Part shown: piece by piece, positions 18,308 through 35,994 of the stretch
Layout of the letters: each line of letters begins with the position of its first letter
How positions within the stretch are numbered: position 1 is the first letter of the stretch
Source: Bryobacterales bacterium
GTDB taxonomy: Bacteria; Acidobacteriota; Terriglobia; Bryobacterales; Bryobacteraceae
Direction of reading: 5' to 3'
Length of the DNA: 55,303 nucleotides
Assembly (NCBI GenBank): GCA_003166875.1
Contig: PMUN01000359.1
Coordinates: 1,974-57,276, forward strand
Notes under the pieces: generated by a model
The model's database searches: none
What the model was told of the DNA's origin: nothing
What the model saw: the letters and a program-made list of their open reading frames with translations, nothing else
Made by a program: the position numbers and the translations under genes

Positions 18308-18991
18308 TCAAAAAGCGTGCGCGTACCGCCGCATCGTATCGATCTCTCGCTGCATAGCTTCCTGACGCATCCGGATCAACACCAGCACCGTGGCCAGCAT
18401 TATGAGAGCGAGGAAGTTCCACCAGATGGGCGCTTCCATGCCAGGCGCCATTCCACCGCCGCTGCGAATGCTCAACACCGGGCCAGGATGCTGCGTCCGG
18501 AACCACTCGATCGACTTCCAGACGATCACAACATCCACGCACGCGAATATCGACAGTACCGCGCACAATCTGGCCCGTGTGGTCGGATCGTCAATCGCGC
18601 GCCGCAGCATCAGGTAGCCGACGTACAGCAGCCAGCAGATGAAGAACGACGTGAGCCGGTAGTCCCAGGTCCACCAGATGCCCCAGATGATGCGGCCCCA
18701 AATGCTGCCGGTAATCAAGGTAATTGTGGTGAATGCAAACGAGACCTCAGTAATGGAGGCCGCTACCGAATCGAAGCGCAAATCCTTCTTGATCAGATAC
18801 CCGACGCTACAGAACATCGCCAGGAAGAATCCCGCGAATGACGTGATTGCCGACGGCACATGGAAATAGATGATGCGGAAGATCGCGCCCTGATTCAGCT
18901 CGTCCGGCACCTTCAGAAACATGGTGTGCAGATTCCAGCTCAAGATCAGTCCCGACAGCACCGAAAGAGCCAAAATGATTTTCAGTCGCAT
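18308..18991 (-). CDS. ccmC: Heme exporter protein CcmC
   Basis: The 227-residue membrane protein has six predicted helices and the tryptophan-rich heme-handling motif (WGRIIWGIWWTWDYRLTS) between helices. The conserved histidine in the first external loop is in YFHVPSAIT. CcmC binds heme at the outer face of the membrane and loads it on CcmE. The gene lies 5 nt after ccmB and 10 nt before ccmD. Confidence 0.95.
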   Translation of the reverse strand: MRLKIILALSVLSGLILSWNLHTMFLKVPDELNQGAIFRIIYFHVPSAITSFAGFFLAMFCSVGYLIKKDLRFDSVAASITEVSFAFTTITLITGSIWGRIIWGIWWTWDYRLTSFFICWLLYVGYLMLRRAIDDPTTRARLCAVLSIFACVDVVIVWKSIEWFRTQHPGPVLSIRSGGGMAPGMEAPIWWNFLALIMLATVLVLIRMRQEAMQREIDTMRRYAHAF

Positions 18992-18996
18992 AGTTT

Positions 18997-19677
18997 TTAC
19001 CCCACTAATACGATTTCAACTAGCGCTAACGACAAAGCCGTAAAGATTACATCAAACCCAGCCAACAGCTTGAACCAGATCTGATCGTCAGTTTCGAGCG
19101 GATCGCCGGCAATCAACACCGTGCTGAGCCGGATCGCGCCCAACAACGCGGGGATCAGCATGGGATAGACCAGCGTCGGCAACATCAACTCCCGCAGTCG
19201 CAGATTCACCGTCATGGCGCTGAACAGCGTCCCAATCACCGTGATTCCCCAGGTCCCGAGCAACATGACCAAGAACAGTAATCCCCACCGCGCGGGCCAG
19301 CGAGCATTATAGAAAATAATGAACACCGGGAAGCTGACGCATTCCACCACCATCAGCAGCAGATAGTTCGCCAGACATTTCCCAAAAAACAATTGCGCGC
19401 CGCTGGCCGGCGACGAGATCAGCGCATCCAGGCAATCGTTCACCAGCTCGCGCGCGAAGCTGCGATTGAGGATCAGTGTTCCGGCGAACGCATACACCAG
19501 CCACAGCAACCCTCCGGATATTTCCCGCACCTGGTCGGAACCCGGATCGAAGGCGAAGCTGAACAGCATCAGGATCACCAGCGCGAACGAGAGCGACGCG
19601 TTGACCGTTTCCTTGCTCCGAATCTCCGACCGCAGGTCCTTGCCCGCGATGGCCAGCGCCTGTTGGAGAAACGTCAT
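18997..19677 (-). CDS. ccmB: Heme exporter protein CcmB (ABC permease)
   Basis: The 226-residue protein has six hydrophobic helices and CcmB features: AGKDLRSEIRSKE at the N-terminus, RSFARELVNDCLDALISSP in the first cytoplasmic loop, and TLVYPMLIPALLGAIR near the C-terminus. It forms the ABC transporter with CcmA that drives release of heme-loaded CcmE. Its start overlaps the ccmA stop by 4 nt. Confidence 0.95.
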   Translation of the reverse strand: MTFLQQALAIAGKDLRSEIRSKETVNASLSFALVILMLFSFAFDPGSDQVREISGGLLWLVYAFAGTLILNRSFARELVNDCLDALISSPASGAQLFFGKCLANYLLLMVVECVSFPVFIIFYNARWPARWGLLFLVMLLGTWGITVIGTLFSAMTVNLRLRELMLPTLVYPMLIPALLGAIRLSTVLIAGDPLETDDQIWFKLLAGFDVIFTALSLALVEIVLVG

Positions 19678-20372
19678 GCTTCTCCATAGTGACGATACAG
19701 CCAGCCCGGATCTTCCAACATCTCGCGCGAGCGCTCTCCGCGGAATGCCAATTTTCCTCGATTGATCAACGCCACATCGGTTGCCAGTTCCAGAGCCTCA
19801 CGCAGTTGGTGCGTGGACATGATGATAGTCCGGCCTTCCGCCAGCGCACCTTTCAGCAGCCCTTGCAGCACCGCGATAGCACGATCATCCAACGCCGTGA
19901 AAGGTTCGTCCAGCAGCAGAAGTGAGGGATTATGCAGGAACGCGCGAGCTACCGCCAGCCGCTGTCGCATCCCACGCGAGAATTCGCGCACCAGGCCGTC
20001 GCTAACGCGGTCCAACCCCGTGCGCTCCAACCATTCCATCGCGATCTGGCGCGGATTCTCCATCCCGTACAAGCGCGCGAACAGCCGCAGGTTCTCGAAC
20101 GCCGAAAGTTCTTCATAGACGCCGATGCCGTGGCCCAACACCCCAATCCGCGCCCGGGTCTTCTCCGCCCGCGCATCCCCGCCCAAAATCGTGATGCTGC
20201 CCTTAGCGGCCTTCGACAAACCGGCCAGCATCCGCAGCAGCGTAGTCTTCCCGGCCCCATTGCGCCCCAGCAGCGCGAGACAAGCCCCGCCCTCTACATT
20301 GAAGCTGATATCCTTGAGCGCCGGAAAGTCACCATAAAATTTCCAGACACCCTCAATCGCGACCGCGCTCAT
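19674..20372 (-). CDS. ccmA: Heme exporter ATP-binding protein CcmA
   Basis: The start is taken as the ATG at 20372 (MSAVAIEGVWKFYG), because the upstream part of the frame is a repeat; the product has 232 residues. Walker A is GRNGAGKTTLL, the signature is FSRGMRQRLAVARA, Walker B is LLLLDEPFTALD and the switch His is in STHQLREA. It hydrolyses ATP for the CcmABC complex. A short palindromic repeat sits directly upstream and separates ccmA from the upstream operon part. Confidence 0.95.
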   Translation of the reverse strand: MSAVAIEGVWKFYGDFPALKDISFNVEGGACLALLGRNGAGKTTLLRMLAGLSKAAKGSITILGGDARAEKTRARIGVLGHGIGVYEELSAFENLRLFARLYGMENPRQIAMEWLERTGLDRVSDGLVREFSRGMRQRLAVARAFLHNPSLLLLDEPFTALDDRAIAVLQGLLKGALAEGRTIIMSTHQLREALELATDVALINRGKLAFRGERSREMLEDPGWLYRHYGEA

Positions 20373-20381
20373 GCGAATTCT

Positions 20382-20454
20382 GGCCGCGAATGAACGCAAA
20401 TAAACGCAAATAACCTCGTGCCCGATTCGCGTTCATTCGCGTTCATTTGCGGCC
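20382..20454. repeat. Inverted repeat of GAATGAACGC units
   Basis: The left arm (GGCCGCGAATGAACGCAAAT...) and right arm (...ATTCGCGTTCATTTGCGGCC) form an imperfect palindrome of about 73 bp. The unit fills the gap between the stop codon at 20454 and the ccmA start. A half-unit of the same sequence is at 36564-36593, where it forms the end of tsaE. Confidence 0.8.
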
Positions 20455-21497
20455 TATCCTTTTTTCGGTGAACTGCGGTACAACGCCACCGACCCCGCTG
20501 CCAAGGTCGCGAACGCTATCCCCAGGATCAGGTACAGCCGATCGTAAATACGCGGCTTCACTTCCTGGATGGTTGGCGCACCGTTGTCTTCTTCCGATCC
20601 AGATCCCGATCCCAACGCTTCGGCGGCCGGCTGCAGCCCACCCGTGCCTTCCACCGTAACCTTGTATTCGTTCCCCTTGATGCGGTAGATACTGGCCTGC
20701 GTCTTCGGCTCCTGTCCGGCTAGTTCCAGGTTGTCGCCCTTTACGGTCACTCCGGTCGGAATCACCAAGTCTGATGCTCCCTCCGCGTGCAGGATCTTAC
20801 CCGAAAAGATCAGCGGATTCGCCACAGGAATCGTGTAGTTGAGATCGAAGCGCGTCTCTCCCGGCTTGATCGGATAGTCCACCTTGTAAATGTTCGCCTG
20901 GGCCGTCTTCTGAGCTGGCCGCTGGATCGGCATGCCACCGGGAGCGTTGATTGTAACGCTCACTTTCTCGTGCGCTTCAGGAGGCAGATAAAAACGGAAC
21001 GACCCATTGGCCGAGTCGTTGTAAGTAAGCTTCGGATCGCCCTGATACAGGATGCCCTCGCTCACCGCCATCTCGCTCGCCCCAGGTTGCAGCACAATAA
21101 AATGCTGGCTCACTTTCGCAGTGCCAGGCTTATTGGTGGATTGGAAAACATCCACTTCGACACCGTGCGTGGGCGTGCCGGGCATCATCACCTTGGTGTA
21201 CAAAACACCACTAAAAATCGCTTGAATGAGCGCGGGACCTTGCGTGTCCTTATTGAACCGGAACTTCCCCTCCGCATCGGTCTTAGCGCTGGCCAGCGTC
21301 TGCATCCCGCCCTGCCCAGGCTGCACGAGTTGCAAGATGGTCCCCACCGACGGCTGCCCAGTAGTGCGATTAATCACGGTCCCATCAACAGCCGCAAATG
21401 CCGAAACACAAAAGAGCCACGGATACACACGGATGCACACAGATTTCCGAAAACATCCGTGTCCATCCGTGTCCATCCGTGACCAATTTCTCTTCAT
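20454..21497 (-). CDS. Secreted carboxypeptidase-regulatory-like protein with C-terminal anchor
   Basis: The start is the ATG at 21497, overlapping the previous stop as ATGA; the product has 347 residues. The N-terminus is unusual: residues 5-25 (SRMDTDGHG...CIRVYPWLF) are encoded by a dispersed repeat that seems to supply the hydrophobic core of the signal sequence. Next come a carboxypeptidase-regulatory-like beta-sandwich (VDGTVINRTTGQPSVGTIL), two further beta-rich stretches, an acidic Ser/Gly linker and one membrane helix (LYLILGIAFATLAAGSVALY). It lies between ccmH-zinc ribbon and ccmA, so it is probably a periplasmic membrane protein made with the Ccm machinery. No known Ccm subunit matches it. 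Confidence 0.78.
   Translation of the reverse strand: MKRNWSRMDTDGHGCFRKSVCIRVYPWLFCVSAFAAVDGTVINRTTGQPSVGTILQLVQPGQGGMQTLASAKTDAEGKFRFNKDTQGPALIQAIFSGVLYTKVMMPGTPTHGVEVDVFQSTNKPGTAKVSQHFIVLQPGASEMAVSEGILYQGDPKLTYNDSANGSFRFYLPPEAHEKVSVTINAPGGMPIQRPAQKTAQANIYKVDYPIKPGETRFDLNYTIPVANPLIFSGKILHAEGASDLVIPTGVTVKGDNLELAGQEPKTQASIYRIKGNEYKVTVEGTGGLQPAAEALGSGSGSEEDNGAPTIQEVKPRIYDRLYLILGIAFATLAAGSVALYRSSPKKG
21414..21484. repeat. Dispersed CACGGATG repeat inside a coding region
   Basis: The left arm CACGGATACACACGGATG and the right arm CATCCGTGTCCATCCGTG form an imperfect palindrome. It lies wholly inside the 5' part of the gene at 20454-21497 and encodes the MDTDGHG...SVCIRVYPWLF stretch. The same type of phantom peptide is common in translated intergenic repeats of other bacteria, from general knowledge; no database search was run. 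Confidence 0.75.
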
Positions 21498-21904
21498 AAC
21501 GCCATCGCCTTCCCGCACTCCCCGCAAAATTTCAGCGGCTGCGCGAACGTAGCCCCGCAGTGCGGACATTTCTTGCCGCCAGGCTTGGGTTTAGCTACCG
21601 CAACGGCCGGCGCAGCAGCGGCCTTGGTCTTCACCGCGGGCCCGGTAGAATCAATCTCCGCCAACACCTTCGCCAGCTCCCGCTGCAGATCCAGCTTCGT
21701 TTTCTGATAGTCCGCGTCCGATAGCTTGCCCACCCGAAATTCGAATTGCAAATCGCGCAGGTTCTCGTATATCTGGGCCTTGCGCTGTTCCAAGTGCGCT
21801 GTGGGCGACGCTGCCGGCGCTTCCGGAATGTCCCGGCCTCGAACCAGTAAAGTGAAAACGATTGTTCCTGCAGTAAGAAGGATAGCGGCTACGAGGACCA
21901 TCAA
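21494..21904 (-). CDS. Membrane-anchored coiled-coil protein with zinc ribbon (CcmI-like position)
   Basis: The 136-residue protein has an N-terminal membrane helix, then a predicted helical stretch (LEQRKAQIYENLRDLQFEF) that resembles the CcmI/CycH N-terminal region (KxxxYENLRDLxxEFxxGKLxxxDY). An Ala/Pro linker follows, and finally a double CxxC zinc ribbon (CPHCGATF, CGECGKAM). It overlaps ccmH by 4 nt. CcmI normally has TPR repeats that bind apocytochrome; those are absent here and replaced by the zinc ribbon. It may chaperone apocytochrome c or CcmH, which is inference. Confidence 0.75.
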   Translation of the reverse strand: MMVLVAAILLTAGTIVFTLLVRGRDIPEAPAASPTAHLEQRKAQIYENLRDLQFEFRVGKLSDADYQKTKLDLQRELAKVLAEIDSTGPAVKTKAAAAPAVAVAKPKPGGKKCPHCGATFAQPLKFCGECGKAMAL

Positions 21905-22368
21905 TCGAGCTTTTCCACTTCTTTCTCGATTTGATCGTGATACCGGCTTAGCTCAGGGTCATCCATGGAAGCTGCCCCTGCAACCGCCCCTTTGCGGCTG
22001 TACCTGCGTATCACCCACACGACGAGAATCAGTCCGAGTATGGCAGCCGAGTACATGGAGAGTGAGCCCATCATACCGGGTGGATTTGCGACAACCTCTT
22101 TCCCTTGCTCCCGCGCGAACTGATCCAGTATCGCCTGGTCCGAGAATCCAGCCGATTGCAGCTTCAGAATCTTTTTCTTGTTGTCCCAGCAGGTTCGGCA
22201 AGGATAAGGTTCCATGCGGCATGCCATATTCATCTTGCACCCACATGGGCAGAGCAATTTCTCTGCCACTCGATTCACCGCCGGACTCTCCAACTCCTCG
22301 GCGCTCTGAGCGAAACTCGGCGCCACGAAAAGGGCGAAAACGAGAAAACTATTTCTCAACCGGCGCAT
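21901..22368 (-). CDS. ccmH: Cytochrome c maturation thiol protein CcmH
   Basis: The 155-residue protein has a signal or anchor helix (residues 8-20), a periplasmic domain with a Cys-rich motif (LLCPCGCKMNMAC, Cys40, 42, 44, 50 and then Cys57, 60) and a C-terminal membrane helix. Classical CcmH has LRCxxC; this Cys-rich variant is seen in several non-proteobacterial lineages. It keeps apocytochrome CxxCH thiols reduced before heme attachment. It overlaps the 3' end of ccmF by 20 nt. Confidence 0.88.
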   Translation of the reverse strand: MRRLRNSFLVFALFVAPSFAQSAEELESPAVNRVAEKLLCPCGCKMNMACRMEPYPCRTCWDNKKKILKLQSAGFSDQAILDQFAREQGKEVVANPPGMMGSLSMYSAAILGLILVVWVIRRYSRKGAVAGAASMDDPELSRYHDQIEKEVEKLD

Positions 22369-24364
22369 GTTTCTGCGTCACTCCGATCACTTGCGTCCGC
22401 GCGTAAGACAGCCGCACCTTGCTCGGGATCAAACATACCAGCGTTCCCATCGCCAGCACCCAGAACCCAATCCAGATCCAGGTGACCAATGGAAAGGTGT
22501 ACGCCTGAATTACCGCGCGCTGATTATCATTCGAAATCCCGGCGAAGTTCAGATACAAATCTTCGTTGAGGCGCCGCCGGATAGACACTTCTGAAGTCGG
22601 CTGCTGGCTGGATTTGTATAAACGCCGCTCCGGCTCCATGGTCCCGAGCGACTTCCCGCCTTCGGATGCCTCAACCACCAGCTTCTGCCAAACATAATTG
22701 TCGTTCTCGCCCTTCAACATATCGGCGATTCGCAGCGTGTAGTGCCCCAGTTGAAAACTGCCTCCGGGAGCTACTTCTTTAGTGACATTCTGGTTGAATG
22801 CCGCACCCGTGTACCCAATAAACATGAACACAATGCCCATGTGCACCACGTACCCGCCGTAGCGCCGCGTGTTGCGATGCGTCAGCTCAATCGTCGCCGG
22901 AATCAGTCCGATCCCGCTCTTGGCTTTGATCGCCGAAGCGCCTTTCCAGAATTCGGAAAAGATCGTCGCTGTAACGAACATGCACAGCCCGAACGAGACC
23001 AGAGCGAATGGATGCTCATAAACGCCTGCAATCGCCAACCCGACCATCACAACCAGCGCCGCAATGGACGGCCAGAAGAACGCGCGCCGCAAGCTTTCAA
23101 TCGAGCTCCTACGCCAAGCGATCAGCGGCCCAACCCCCGTCAGAAATAGCAGGCCCAATCCAATAGGAACATTGATGCGATTGAAAAACGGCGCGTCCAC
23201 GCTGATCTTCTCGCCCGTCACGGCTTCTGAAATCACAGGGAACAATGTGCCCCACAGCACCGCGAAGCAGCTCGCCAGCAGGATCAGGTTATTGAACATG
23301 AAGCTGGATTCGCGCGACACCACGCTCTCCAAATTCGCTTCGCTCTTCAGATAACTCAGCCGATCCAGAATCAGGTAAATGGTCGCCGCGATTCCGATCG
23401 CTAGAAACACTACGAAGTAGGTTCCAATCGGCGATTGCGCGAAGGCGTGCACCGAGCTCACTACACCGGACCGCGTCAAAAACGTCCCGAAGATGCAAAG
23501 GAAGAAGGTGGCTGAAATCAGCACCATGTTCCAGACCTTCATCATGCCCTTCTTTTCCTGCATCATCACCGAATGCAGAAACGCCGTCGCGGTGATCCAC
23601 GGCAGCAACGAGGCATTTTCAACCGGATCCCAGGCCCAGTATCCGCCCCAGCCCAACACCGCGTACGCCCAGCCCTGCCCCAACAAGATGCCCGTACTCT
23701 GGAACAGCCACGTCACAATGGTCCACCGCCGCGTGGTATGTATCCATGAATCGCCCGGCTGCTTGGTGATCAACGATCCCATCGCGAATGCGAACGGCAC
23801 CGTGAATCCCACGTATCCCAGATACAGCATCGGAGGATGAATCACCATCGTCCAGTACTGCAGCAACGGGTTCAGGCCCTTCCCCATTCCCTCCACGATG
23901 TTGCCGCGCCCAGCGATCAAAATCTGGAACGGGCTGAACACGAACGCAATCAGGATCAGGAAAAATGTCTCAGTGGCCATCAACACCGACGTGACCCACG
24001 GCATCATATCCCGGAACTTTCGCCGGTTCATGAAAACTACTATGGCCGAATAGGTCGCGAGCAGCCACGCCCACAACAGCAGCGATCCTTCCTGGCCCCC
24101 CCACCACGCCGTGAACTTGTAGATCTTCGACATGGATGCGTCCGTGTGCGCCGCGACGTAACCCATTCGGAAATCGCCTGTCAGGAGGGAGTATATAAGG
24201 ATGCCGGAAGCGATGGTCAGCAGAATCCAGGTGGAGTAGACGGACCGTTCCGCGCTTACCACCAGAAACGGTTTCTTCCGCAGCTTGCCGACCACGGAAC
24301 CAATTACTGCGTAGATGGCAAAGCAAAACGCGAGCAGTATCGCGAGAGCGCCTATGTTTTCCAT
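22349..24364 (-). CDS. ccmF: Cytochrome c heme lyase subunit CcmF
   Basis: The 671-residue protein has about 14-15 membrane helices. The WWD heme-handling domain is seen in WGWGGYWAWDPVENASLLPW-type sequence near residue 230, and a second Trp-rich motif (WWGGQEGSLLLWAW) lies near residue 88. Conserved external histidines are present, including those in MVIHPPMLYLGY and LTRSGVVSSVHAFA. With CcmH it ligates heme to apocytochrome. Length is typical. It is the second gene of the ccm operon. Confidence 0.97.
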   Translation of the reverse strand: MENIGALAILLAFCFAIYAVIGSVVGKLRKKPFLVVSAERSVYSTWILLTIASGILIYSLLTGDFRMGYVAAHTDASMSKIYKFTAWWGGQEGSLLLWAWLLATYSAIVVFMNRRKFRDMMPWVTSVLMATETFFLILIAFVFSPFQILIAGRGNIVEGMGKGLNPLLQYWTMVIHPPMLYLGYVGFTVPFAFAMGSLITKQPGDSWIHTTRRWTIVTWLFQSTGILLGQGWAYAVLGWGGYWAWDPVENASLLPWITATAFLHSVMMQEKKGMMKVWNMVLISATFFLCIFGTFLTRSGVVSSVHAFAQSPIGTYFVVFLAIGIAATIYLILDRLSYLKSEANLESVVSRESSFMFNNLILLASCFAVLWGTLFPVISEAVTGEKISVDAPFFNRINVPIGLGLLFLTGVGPLIAWRRSSIESLRRAFFWPSIAALVVMVGLAIAGVYEHPFALVSFGLCMFVTATIFSEFWKGASAIKAKSGIGLIPATIELTHRNTRRYGGYVVHMGIVFMFIGYTGAAFNQNVTKEVAPGGSFQLGHYTLRIADMLKGENDNYVWQKLVVEASEGGKSLGTMEPERRLYKSSQQPTSEVSIRRRLNEDLYLNFAGISNDNQRAVIQAYTFPLVTWIWIGFWVLAMGTLVCLIPSKVRLSYARTQVIGVTQKHAPVEK

Positions 24365-24422: not shown

Positions 24423-24845
24423 CTATATTCCGGCCCGGTTCGCGTCCTTCTTCAGTTGCGGCTTGGCTTCGTATTTCGATGCGCACTTAGCCTGGATCTT
24501 GTTTGCTTGAAACACGCCGTCCGGCCCCAGCTTCCCGTCCGCCAAAGCCTGAGCGCCGTCCTTGAACGTGTCCGGCAACGGATCGATCCCGCTGTAAACC
24601 ACCTTCAGCGTCTTGGATTCCTGATGCATCACAAATGTCACTTCAGCGCCATTGCGAACAATCGATCCCGGCTGCACATCGCCACCTACGCGAAGCCGTT
24701 TTCCTTTGGCCTGATCGCCCATCTGACCGAGTTCCGCGATCGTCTTGTAGTAAGTCTTGCTGTCGCTGATGCCGCCCATCGCCAGCCATACCAGCACGCC
24801 CAGAATCACAGCCACCAAAGCGCCAAACTTCGCGTACGTGTTCAT
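24423..24845 (-). CDS. ccmE: Heme chaperone CcmE, CxxxY variant
   Basis: The 140-residue protein has an N-terminal membrane anchor (residues 7-24), an OB-fold domain (RLRVGGDVQPGSIVRNG; FVMHQESKTLKVVYSG) and the C-terminal heme-binding region. In most CcmE the heme-binding residue is His in HxxxY; here the motif is KIQAKCASKYEAK, so Cys121 replaces His and Tyr125 is kept. The CxxxY form is known from archaea and Desulfovibrio, where it was reported with a Ccm system lacking CcmH and CcmG. In this operon CcmH is present and CcmG is absent. It is the first gene of the ccm operon. Confidence 0.93.
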   Translation of the reverse strand: MNTYAKFGALVAVILGVLVWLAMGGISDSKTYYKTIAELGQMGDQAKGKRLRVGGDVQPGSIVRNGAEVTFVMHQESKTLKVVYSGIDPLPDTFKDGAQALADGKLGPDGVFQANKIQAKCASKYEAKPQLKKDANRAGI

Positions 24846-24943: not shown

Positions 24944-25435
24944 TCACCCAATGTGACATAGATTACACGCGATCTTCAGATCCTCAGGCGTCGCGCACTC
25001 CAACGTGTAAGTATGCCCGTCCATGCTCCAGGTAAACACCCTGGCACTGGACCCCGCGTGCCGCCCATCCACCCTAAGCCGTCCGTCACGACCACCCACG
25101 CTATAAGCGATCTCGACGGACCCCTTCGCGAAGTTCGCACCCATCAACTGGACCCCGGCGGGCCGCGCCCGCAACGGAACATCAATCCCCGCCTGAGCCT
25201 TCACCCAGCCCCGAATCTCCCCGGCATCAGCCGACCTAAATCCCCGATGCCCCACAAACAACCAAATTGCTAATAGAAGCACCGTGGCGCAGGCACTCAT
25301 GCCTGCCGCGGTCACACTCGTGTGAACGCTTTTCTTCCTAACTCGCGGATTCCGAACCCGCTCCCAAAGCTCCTCCGGCGCCGCAACCCGGTCCAACTGG
25401 TGCGCCAGCACCGGCTCAAACCATTCTCTATGCAT
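24944..25435 (-). CDS. Membrane anti-sigma-like protein
   Basis: The 163-residue protein overlaps the end of the upstream ECF sigma gene by 8 nt, the usual anti-sigma position. It has a cytoplasmic N-terminus of about 38 residues (FEPVLAHQLDRVAAPEELWE), one membrane helix (about residues 47-62) and a periplasmic beta-rich domain ending DLKIACNLCHIG, with CxxCH at the very end. That CxxCH is a potential heme c attachment site, although it lacks the rest of a cytochrome fold. A palindromic repeat (25284-25329) is read in frame as part of the segment entering the membrane helix. No zinc-finger motif is visible. Confidence 0.72.
   Translation of the reverse strand: MHREWFEPVLAHQLDRVAAPEELWERVRNPRVRKKSVHTSVTAAGMSACATVLLLAIWLFVGHRGFRSADAGEIRGWVKAQAGIDVPLRARPAGVQLMGANFAKGSVEIAYSVGGRDGRLRVDGRHAGSSARVFTWSMDGHTYTLECATPEDLKIACNLCHIG
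25284..25329. repeat. Two-hairpin repeat, copy A, inside a coding region
   Basis: Two short hairpins in tandem (GCAGGC-ACTCAT-GCCTGC, then TCACAC-TCG-TGTGA) are joined by CGCGG and followed by ACGC. Copies B (27359-27403) and C (46128-46173) share the layout, the ACTC(A/G)TG loop of hairpin 2 and the CCGC spacer. Copy A encodes SVTAAGMSACATV in the anti-sigma-like protein. Confidence 0.85.
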
Positions 25436-26000
25436 TTCCCACCGCCCCTCGCAAATGCGACAACCGCCGCTCCAAAATCTTATGCGCCCGGTTCAGCCGC
25501 GACGCCACGGTCCCCGCTGAACATCCCAGAATCCGCGCAATCTCGTCATACGCCAATCCTTCCGTGTAGCGCAACACCACTACCATGCGTTGCTCAGGCG
25601 ATAACCGGGCGACAATCCGCTGGACGTTGTCCTCCACTTCAGCCCGCATCAATCGATGCAACACGGTTTCCGAGTGAGCGCTCACTGCTTCAATCAGCTC
25701 GCCCAGGCACGGCATCATCCGCCGCCCGCTACGCTGATAGTCCAGGCAAGTATTGACGACAATCCTGTACAGCCACGATTCGAACCCAGCCTCGGCACGA
25801 AATTCCCGAATGGCGCCCAGCACCTTCAGAAACGATTCCTGCGCAATGTCCATCGCCCGAGCCGGATCACCCGAATAGCGCAGCGCGATGGAATACACCC
25901 GATCCTTGTGCGCTTCAAACAGCACACGGAACGCGTCCGAGTCCCCGCGTTGGCAGGCCTCGATCACTTCCCGGTCGTTCGAATCCAGCACTATACCCAA
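25428..26000 (-). CDS. ECF RNA polymerase sigma factor
   Basis: The 190-residue protein shows sigma region 2 (ARAMDIAQESFLKVLGAIREF; FESWLYRIVVNTCLDYQR) and region 4 (LAYDEIARILGCSAGTVASRLNRA). Its N-terminus (DREVIEACQRGDSDAFRVLFE) is typical and complete. It is followed with overlap by a single-helix membrane protein that is probably its anti-sigma factor. The signal and regulon are unknown. Confidence 0.92.
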   Translation of the reverse strand: MGIVLDSNDREVIEACQRGDSDAFRVLFEAHKDRVYSIALRYSGDPARAMDIAQESFLKVLGAIREFRAEAGFESWLYRIVVNTCLDYQRSGRRMMPCLGELIEAVSAHSETVLHRLMRAEVEDNVQRIVARLSPEQRMVVVLRYTEGLAYDEIARILGCSAGTVASRLNRAHKILERRLSHLRGAVGNA

Positions 26001-34032: not shown

Positions 34033-34743
34033 ATGATCCAAACCCGCAACCTCAAAAAATCCTTTGGCGCGGTTCAGGCAGTCCGCGACCTCTCCTTTAG
34101 CGCTCCCGACGGTGCCATCACTGGCCTCTTGGGATCGAACGGCGCCGGCAAAACCACCACGCTCCGCATGATTTGCGGAGTGCTCCAACCCGACAACGGA
34201 TGGGTTCGAATTGACAAACCTGTCGGCGCGCTCCTCGATCACATAGGTCTCTACCCCCGCCTCACCGCGCGCGAAAACCTCGCCTACTTCGGTGAACTGC
34301 GCGGCATTCCGCCCATCCAGCTCGCGCAACGAATCGAGCAGGTGCTCTCCCAACTTGGCATGGACGCCATCGCCGATCGCCGCACCGCCGGCTTTTCCCA
34401 AGGTGAGCGTATGAAGACCGCGCTCGCAAGAGCCATCCTCCACTCGCCCCAAAATCTGCTACTCGATGAACCAACCAACGGTCTGGACGTTCCCAGCGTC
34501 CGCGCCCTCCGCGGGCTGCTCCGCCAAATGCGCGACTCAGGAATGTGCATCGTCCTCTCCAGCCACATTCTTGAAGAGGTGCGGATCCTGTGCGATAACG
34601 TGGCCATCGTCTCCGCCGGCCGCGTGGTCGCACAAGGTTCTCCCGAAGACTTGTGCAGCCAAACCGACAGCCAATCACTCGAAGACGCCTTCATAAAATT
34701 GACCACCAGCCAGGAGAATCTCGAATGCTTGTCCACGCTCTAA
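34033..34743 (+). CDS. ABC transporter ATP-binding protein (NatA/CcmA-like exporter)
   Basis: The 236-residue protein has Walker A GSNGAGKTTTL, Q-loop region near VGALLDHIGLYPRLT, signature FSQGERMKTALARA, Walker B NLLLDEPTNGLD and switch His in SSHILEEV. It is of the ABC-2 exporter type, similar to NatA. The permease gene starts inside its last codons. The exported substrate is unknown; Na+ extrusion is only one possibility. Confidence 0.93.
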   Translation: MIQTRNLKKSFGAVQAVRDLSFSAPDGAITGLLGSNGAGKTTTLRMICGVLQPDNGWVRIDKPVGALLDHIGLYPRLTARENLAYFGELRGIPPIQLAQRIEQVLSQLGMDAIADRRTAGFSQGERMKTALARAILHSPQNLLLDEPTNGLDVPSVRALRGLLRQMRDSGMCIVLSSHILEEVRILCDNVAIVSAGRVVAQGSPEDLCSQTDSQSLEDAFIKLTTSQENLECLSTL

Positions 34744-35474
34744 TCGTTGCTCGAAAAGAAATCCGCGATCATCTGCGCGACACCCGCTCGCTGGTCTCCT
34801 CCATGTTTTATGCCTTGATGGGACCACTCGTGGTCGGCATGGTATCCATCGCAGTGCATGGCGAGAAAAGTTCCGCCGTCCTCGTCAGCATGATGTCCGT
34901 ATTCGCGCTGGTAGCCACTTTCGTGGGCGGAATGAACGTCGCCATGGACGCCATCGCCGGTGAGCGTGAGCGCCGATCGCTGCTCCCACTCCTGATGAAT
35001 CCGCTGCTCCGGCGCGATGTGATTATCGGAAAATGGCTGGCCATCAGCTTGTTCGCTGTTGCCGGCGTGATCATCAACCTCTCGGGATTCGCTGTAGTGG
35101 TCGCGTTCCCCTTCCATCTCCTGATCGCCGTAACCCTCGCCCTCATTCCTCTGGTCCTGTTCGCCGCAGCCGTCGAGCTGCTGATTTCCACCTGGTCACG
35201 CAATATAAAGGAAGCGCATACCTACCTCTCGCTAGTCATCTTCCTCCCCATGGTCATCGGCATGTTTCTGGTATTCTTTCCGCACATGGCTTCGACGTGG
35301 CTTTGGTTGCCAGTGGCCGGTCAGCAATTGCTGATCGATCTCCTCACCAAGGGCGCGCCAGTTTCGCTAGTTTCATCGCTGGCGCTAAGCCTTGTCACCG
35401 CAGCCTCCGCGGTGCTCATCTTACTGGCCGCCGCGAAACTCTTGCATCGAGATGAATTTGTCTACGGCAGCTAG
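34725..35474 (+). CDS. ABC-2 type permease (NatB-like)
   Basis: The start is ATG 34725 (MLVHALIVARKEIRDHLRDT), overlapping the ATPase gene; the product has 249 residues. The N-terminal VARKEIRDHLRDTRSL and the loop AGERERRSLLPLLMNPLLRRDVIIGKW are typical of NatB/ABC-2 permeases, with six hydrophobic segments. It forms an exporter with the upstream ATPase. Its 3' end overlaps the sigma factor start by 23 nt. Confidence 0.92.
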   Translation: MLVHALIVARKEIRDHLRDTRSLVSSMFYALMGPLVVGMVSIAVHGEKSSAVLVSMMSVFALVATFVGGMNVAMDAIAGERERRSLLPLLMNPLLRRDVIIGKWLAISLFAVAGVIINLSGFAVVVAFPFHLLIAVTLALIPLVLFAAAVELLISTWSRNIKEAHTYLSLVIFLPMVIGMFLVFFPHMASTWLWLPVAGQQLLIDLLTKGAPVSLVSSLALSLVTAASAVLILLAAAKLLHRDEFVYGS

Positions 35475-35994
35475 CTTCGAAGCAGCGGACGCCGAGCCCG
35501 TAGTCGAGCAGCAGCTCAATCGATTGCTAACCGAGAACGGCCCGGCGCTGCTGCGTCTGGCCGCCAGCTATACCAACACCACAAGCGATCGCGACGATCT
35601 GTTTCAGGACATTGCCATCGCGCTCTGGAAAGCCTTGCCCAGATTCAGAGGTGAAAGCTCCGAGCGGACATTTCTGTTCCGTGTCGCGCACAACCGCGCC
35701 ATCGATTACCTACGCCGTCACCGCGCACCAACCATCCCTATCGACCCCGATGCCCCATTGCGCGACTCGCGCCTCAATCCGGAAGCAGGCCTAGCTCAAG
35801 AACAACAAGGCGAGCGCCTCCGCCAGGCCATTCATCGCCTCCCACTCCCCTACCGGCAAGTCATCACACTGACGCTCGAAGAAATGTCGTATAGCGAGAT
35901 CGCAGCCATCTTGGGCGTCACAGAAACCAACGTCGGCGTACGCCTGAATCGAGCCCGCCAACTGCTGCGACAACTCCTGGAGAATCACAAATGA
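35452..35994 (+). CDS. ECF RNA polymerase sigma factor
   Basis: From ATG 35452 (MNLSTAASFEAADAEPVV) the protein has 180 residues. Region 2 is seen in DRDDLFQDIAIALWKALPRF and RTFLFRVAHNRAIDYLRRH; region 4 is MSYSEIAAILGVTETNVGVRLNRA. It is paralogous to the factor at 1982-2500. It is co-translated with the ABC exporter upstream and a membrane protein downstream (ATGA overlap), so it may control export or respond to it. Confidence 0.92.
   Translation: MNLSTAASFEAADAEPVVEQQLNRLLTENGPALLRLAASYTNTTSDRDDLFQDIAIALWKALPRFRGESSERTFLFRVAHNRAIDYLRRHRAPTIPIDPDAPLRDSRLNPEAGLAQEQQGERLRQAIHRLPLPYRQVITLTLEEMSYSEIAAILGVTETNVGVRLNRARQLLRQLLENHK

Follow-up and report, generated by a model that had tools for sequence, protein, structure and literature searches.

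The window analysed here, i.e., the whole stretch of 55,303 nucleotides from a contig of a soil bacterium of the Bryobacterales, carries on its minus strand an operon that we regard, with a probability of about 0.88, as a System I* operon for cytochrome c maturation, of a sub-form that keeps CcmH and is complete apart from ccmG. System I* is the name used in the literature for Ccm systems in which CcmE has a Cys (PMC3601427). This assignment, made from sequence, is based on gene content and gene order, on the heme-site Cys of CcmE, on the conserved residues of CcmF and on the homology of CcmH.

Gene content of the operon and the heme site of CcmE

The genes are ordered ccmE-F-H-I-(CarboxypepD_reg protein)-A-B-C-D and all of them are intact (Table 1); no thioredoxin-fold ORF, and hence no CcmG, is present in the operon. 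CcmE is homologous to the solved structures 8ce8_E, 1sr3 and 2kct, and its nearest relatives are found in MAGs of Bryobacterales/Bryobacteraceae and further Acidobacteriota. Residue Cys121 pairs with His130 of E. coli CcmE (in LAKHDENY; alignment with 8ce8 and 1sr3) and, in the D. vulgaris protein, with its Cys (alignment with 2kct), which bears out a preliminary description of this DNA in which Cys was said to replace the heme-binding His. The CASKY motif thus has the Cys and, at +4, the Tyr of System I*, and not the His of canonical System I. CcmF keeps the WWD-like segment GWGGYWAWDPVEN as well as four His equivalent to E. coli H173, H261, H303 and H491 (residue alignment).

Table 1. Features of the ccm operon (positions in the window)
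Feature	Position	Strand	Evidence and remarks
ccmE, Cys-type heme chaperone, 140 aa	24845-24423	(-)	PF03100 93 bits (cut-off 24.6), 1.3e-26, residues 31-127; N-terminal membrane anchor and OB-fold domain
CASKY heme-attachment motif of CcmE	24471..24485	(-)	Cys121 = TGC, 24485-24483
ccmF, heme lyase	22349..24364	(-)	PF16327 211 bits, PF01578 119 bits
ccmH-type protein, 155 aa	21901..22368	(-)	PF03918 30.2 bits (cut-off 25); periplasmic domain of three helices and a TM segment
CcmH cysteine cluster C40-C42-C44-C50-C57-C60	22189..22251	(-)	sequence alignment of relatives
ccmI-like small membrane protein, C-terminal zinc ribbon	21494..21904	(-)	TIGR03142 25.5 bits, under the cut-off of 29.3
CarboxypepD_reg-like domain protein with C-terminal TM helix	20454..21569	(-)	PF13620 28.7 bits, under cut-off; start codon uncertain
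ccmA, heme ABC exporter ATPase	19674..20399	(-)	TIGR01189 140.6 bits, above cut-off; ATG start possibly 20372
ccmB	18997..19677	(-)	PF03379 124 bits
ccmC	18308..18991	(-)	TIGR01191 162 bits, under the cut-off of 186, best match
ccmD-like small membrane protein, 53 aa	18136..18297	(-)	TIGR04391 CcmD_alt_fam 22.7 bits (cut-off 24); position conserved

The ccmI-like protein is a helical hairpin with no TPR, and homologues of it occur in 30 of 61 acidobacterial loci surveyed (see below), mostly adjoining ccmF or ccmH. The CarboxypepD_reg-like protein lies between ccmI and ccmA, a place that it keeps in dozens of acidobacterial ccm loci, and its homologues in two of these (L106 and L107) end in a second CcmI-like helical hairpin; it is possibly an unrecognised Ccm component.

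We also searched the remainder of the genome, which is available as an 8.0 Mb draft of 485 contigs (94.7% complete, 5.2% contamination). A second CcmE, which the preliminary description had suggested looking for, was not found in this draft, and the only CcmH above the PF03918 cut-off is that of the operon itself. The draft has no ResB, for which reason System II was rejected as a substitute, and contains 38 matches to cytochrome c CBB3 domains. With the only CcmE, the only CcmH over the cut-off, no ResB and these 38 matches, the operon most likely carries out cytochrome c maturation for the CBB3-domain cytochromes of this genome.

CcmH, its cysteine cluster and candidate sources of reductant

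The score of CcmH against PF03918 is low, but profile comparisons and a predicted structure support its identification. A profile of 21 CcmH relatives matched the solved domain 2hl7 with an E-value of 7e-8, and profile-profile comparison with canonical CcmH gave an E-value of 9e-23. In a Foldseek comparison, an AlphaFold2 model (pLDDT 82.8) matched 2hl7 and 2kw0 best, with probabilities of 1.00 and 0.99, respectively, and E-values of only 0.02 and 0.09. The cysteine loop, with the motif LLCPCGC...C......CRTC, occupies the place of the LRCxxC of textbook CcmH, which is itself absent; C40, C42, C44, C50 and C57 are invariant among the 21 aligned relatives. That CcmH is kept and Cys-rich, as the preliminary description had it, was thus confirmed. 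In five loci of related genomes (L076, L090, L098, L222 and L235), CcmF and a CcmH of the CxC type form a single ORF of about 815-850 aa, a fusion which supports joint action of the two proteins. No paper describing a five-cysteine CcmH was found in the literature searched.

The absence of CcmG, also claimed in the preliminary description, is true of the operon but does not extend to the cell in the same way, as 25 DsbE/TlpA-like stretches are found elsewhere in the genome. None of these scores above the TIGR00385 cut-off; the best DsbE/CcmG-like candidate is an anchored 180-aa protein on another contig (C52), which is closest to ResA. This ResA-like thioredoxin and the single DsbD of the genome are the candidates for a reducing path.

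Published Ccm systems and two operon types in Acidobacteriota

For System I* of Desulfovibrio desulfuricans and archaea (Allen 2006 and Goddard 2010, as reviewed in PMC3601427), the features shared with the window are a CxxxY CcmE, CcmABCDF, the lack of an operonic CcmG and a CcmI-like protein. D. desulfuricans has no CcmH, whereas the operon in the window encodes one with a CxCGC..C..C cluster; the missing CcmH on which the first description of System I* (2006) laid stress, as reviewed in PMC3601427, is therefore not a feature of the present operon, in which a CcmH-family protein is found. According to the 2011 review, approximately one third of the bacteria with Cys-CcmE contain CcmH and its lack is not characteristic (PMC3601427). 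The preliminary description had mentioned reports of CxxxY CcmE in systems without CcmH and CcmG. CcmH has also been reported in two archaeal groups, i.e., Ferroglobus (PMC4429474) and ANME-2d (PMC9012536), and archaeal CcmE is said to be universally of the Cys type (PMC9084895). The streamlined archaeal system of Methanosarcina (CcmABCEF) has the CxxxY CcmE in common with the window but is without CcmD, CcmH and CcmI and has its CcmF split in two (PMC9084895), while the window has all of these and a CcmF in one protein. Compared to System I (ccmABCDEFGH of E. coli and some acidobacterial His loci), the window shares the CcmABCDEF core and the fold of CcmH, and differs by Cys for His in CcmE, by the lack of an operonic CcmG, by a CcmH without LRCxxC and by gene order (E-F-H-I-A-B-C-D as compared to A-B-C-(D)-E-F-G-H).

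For Cys-CcmE, the 2011 review lists delta-Proteobacteria, Chloroflexi and Firmicutes (PMC3601427). The literature searched yielded no paper that names Acidobacteria for Cys-CcmE or combines Acidobacteria with CcmF, and no experiments on any acidobacterial CcmE. We found PF03100 in 186 of 297 Acidobacteriota genomes and read 61 acidobacterial CcmE (60 loci from the PF03100 sample plus the window), the preliminary description having proposed an alignment of such proteins. Of these, 53 have Cys at the heme site and 8 have His; Cys-CcmE is the standard form in this sample of the phylum, where all counts represent related genomes and not independent events.

Among the His loci (e.g., L080-L082, L084, L086, L096 and L099), all seven with ccmF in reach show the gene order A-B-C-E-F-G-H, with a thioredoxin gene in the place of CcmG and a CcmH that carries LRCxxC. 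An operonic thioredoxin or CcmG was found in 0 of 32 Cys loci with ccmF in reach; in these, a CcmH of the CxC type was adjacent in 13 and fused to CcmF in 3, and no linked CcmH was present in 16. All 16 linked CcmH have a motif of the CxCG(x)C..C..C type and none has LRCxxC. The relatives share the Cys and the order E-F-(H)-I-A-B-C-D. A further set of 50 Cys loci from named genomes with ccmH in reach, obtained by a scan whose hits were all acidobacterial and whose patterns favour Cys, so that the set is uninformative on the frequency of His, showed CxC[GSP] in 49 cases, CLCKSC in one and LRCxxC in none. In a CcmF tree, one branch (SH-aLRT 83) parts 43 Cys rows from 8 His rows, with E. coli among the latter; this division may reflect a single old split. 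Overall, there are two discrete operon types in the phylum, and the operon in the window is an unremarkable example of the Cys type.

In a sister family, 18 loci (L052-L069) have ccmE-A-B-C(-D) apart from ccmF-H-I-(CarboxypepD_reg), and at the second locus (L198-L206) CcmH is of the CxC type in 9 of the 9 cases read. A ligase-free system in this family, with ccmF missing beside ccmE, was ruled out, as all such genomes that were tested contain a ccmF, which, where read, is located at the second locus adjoining ccmH. A canonical CcmH elsewhere in the related genomes with Cys-CcmE was rejected as well, since none of the unlinked hits read has LRCxxC.

Two side observations were made in the course of the survey. 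Unlinked CcmH-family proteins mostly have APCCW...H or MSPxC motifs and are located far from ccm genes and not next to ccmF (L207-L209, L213-L217, L221, L224-L228, L232, L233 and L237). One genome (G254) has two His-type CcmE at separate loci (L085 and L086), the former without ccmF nearby.

Alternative explanations and a proposed mechanism

Nothing was found in favour of a sequencing or assembly error affecting codon 121, or of decay of the operon. Such an error was ruled out because the same Cys recurs in both same-family genomes compared and in 53 of 61 CcmE across the families of the phylum; with every gene of the operon intact as well, we give this explanation virtually no weight. The preliminary description had proposed an intermediate type of System I, and one could accordingly think of an evolutionary or mechanistic stage between System I and System I*, in which the CcmH of System I was kept, CcmE was changed and CcmG was lost. 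The retention of CcmH in an operon without CcmG would fit, but the CcmH motif is of a type never met with His-CcmE in the phylum sample, and Cys- and His-systems have different gene orders and part on the CcmF tree (with a support of only 83). Moreover, the arrangement is widespread, the presence of CcmH varies among Cys-systems, and the combination of Cys-CcmE and CcmH was already reported in 2011 (PMC3601427). The intermediate type was therefore not upheld, and we consider it very improbable.

Another explanation is that CcmG and CcmH are both replaced by the five-cysteine CcmH, which would itself pass electrons from DsbD to the CxxCH of apocytochromes, either as a thiol-disulfide oxidoreductase or as a redox module that binds metal. 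Five invariant cysteines in a loop equivalent to LRCxxC, in a protein that occurs solely in loci without an operonic CcmG, are consistent with such a role. On the other hand, 16 of 32 Cys-systems have neither a linked CcmH nor an operonic CcmG, so that a replacement is not needed generally, and the genome encodes many free thioredoxin-fold proteins; we thus view this role as rather unlikely. A wider form of the idea couples the chemistry of CcmE to the cysteine motif of CcmH in Acidobacteriota: Cys-CcmE would function in the absence of CcmG and solely beside a five-cysteine CcmH, or beside no CcmH, and the CxCGC..C..C protein would be a separate module for redox or metal binding, evolved along with heme transfer by Cys and filling the role of CcmG. 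We consider this wider form rather unlikely too.

For the preferred reading, a System I* operon that keeps CcmH, the sequence of events may be outlined as follows. CcmABCD would export heme and load it onto CcmE, which, by analogy to Desulfovibrio, Methanosarcina and E. coli, would carry it, the bond most likely being a thioether of Cys121 and the axial ligand Tyr125. Covalent heme on the Cys of CcmE is known from Desulfovibrio desulfuricans and Methanosarcina, and Cys and His are not interchangeable (PMC3601427, PMC9084895); a covalent bond to Cys121 is nevertheless not assured, because the Cys-CcmE of D. vulgaris has been reported to bind heme non-covalently (PMC3884852). CcmF would then take heme from CcmE and join it to the CxxCH of apocytochromes, presented to it by CcmH together with the small CcmI-like protein. 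By analogy, the cysteine cluster of CcmH most likely handles the thiols of the apocytochromes. As a guess, reductant could come from the single DsbD, either directly or via a TlpA/ResA-like thioredoxin that would stand in for the operonic CcmG.

Why CcmE uses His or Cys, and what CcmH and CcmG do, are questions in cytochrome c biogenesis for which Acidobacteriota offer a good natural comparison, as they hold both forms of CcmE with a clean two-way split in gene sets. Cys-CcmE together with CcmH is already known, and the locus in the window by itself, a System I* operon with CcmH as is typical of Acidobacteriota, adds nothing unusual; the one point that is possibly new concerns the CcmH with five cysteines and the strictness with which it goes together with Cys-CcmE, established within one phylum.

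Several other genes of the window were also noted. Directly upstream of ccmE and on the same strand is an ECF sigma factor (25428-26000 (-)), overlapped by a small membrane protein (24944-25435 (-)), which has no Pfam match and is a possible anti-sigma factor. A pair of ABC genes for an ATPase and a permease (34033-35994 (+)), after which comes an ORF similar to ECF sigma factors, matches the CcmA and CcmB profiles with 208 and 110 bits, as compared to about 260 bits for the operon's own ccmA/ccmB; this weaker pair looks like an ABC-2 exporter rather than a second ccmAB.
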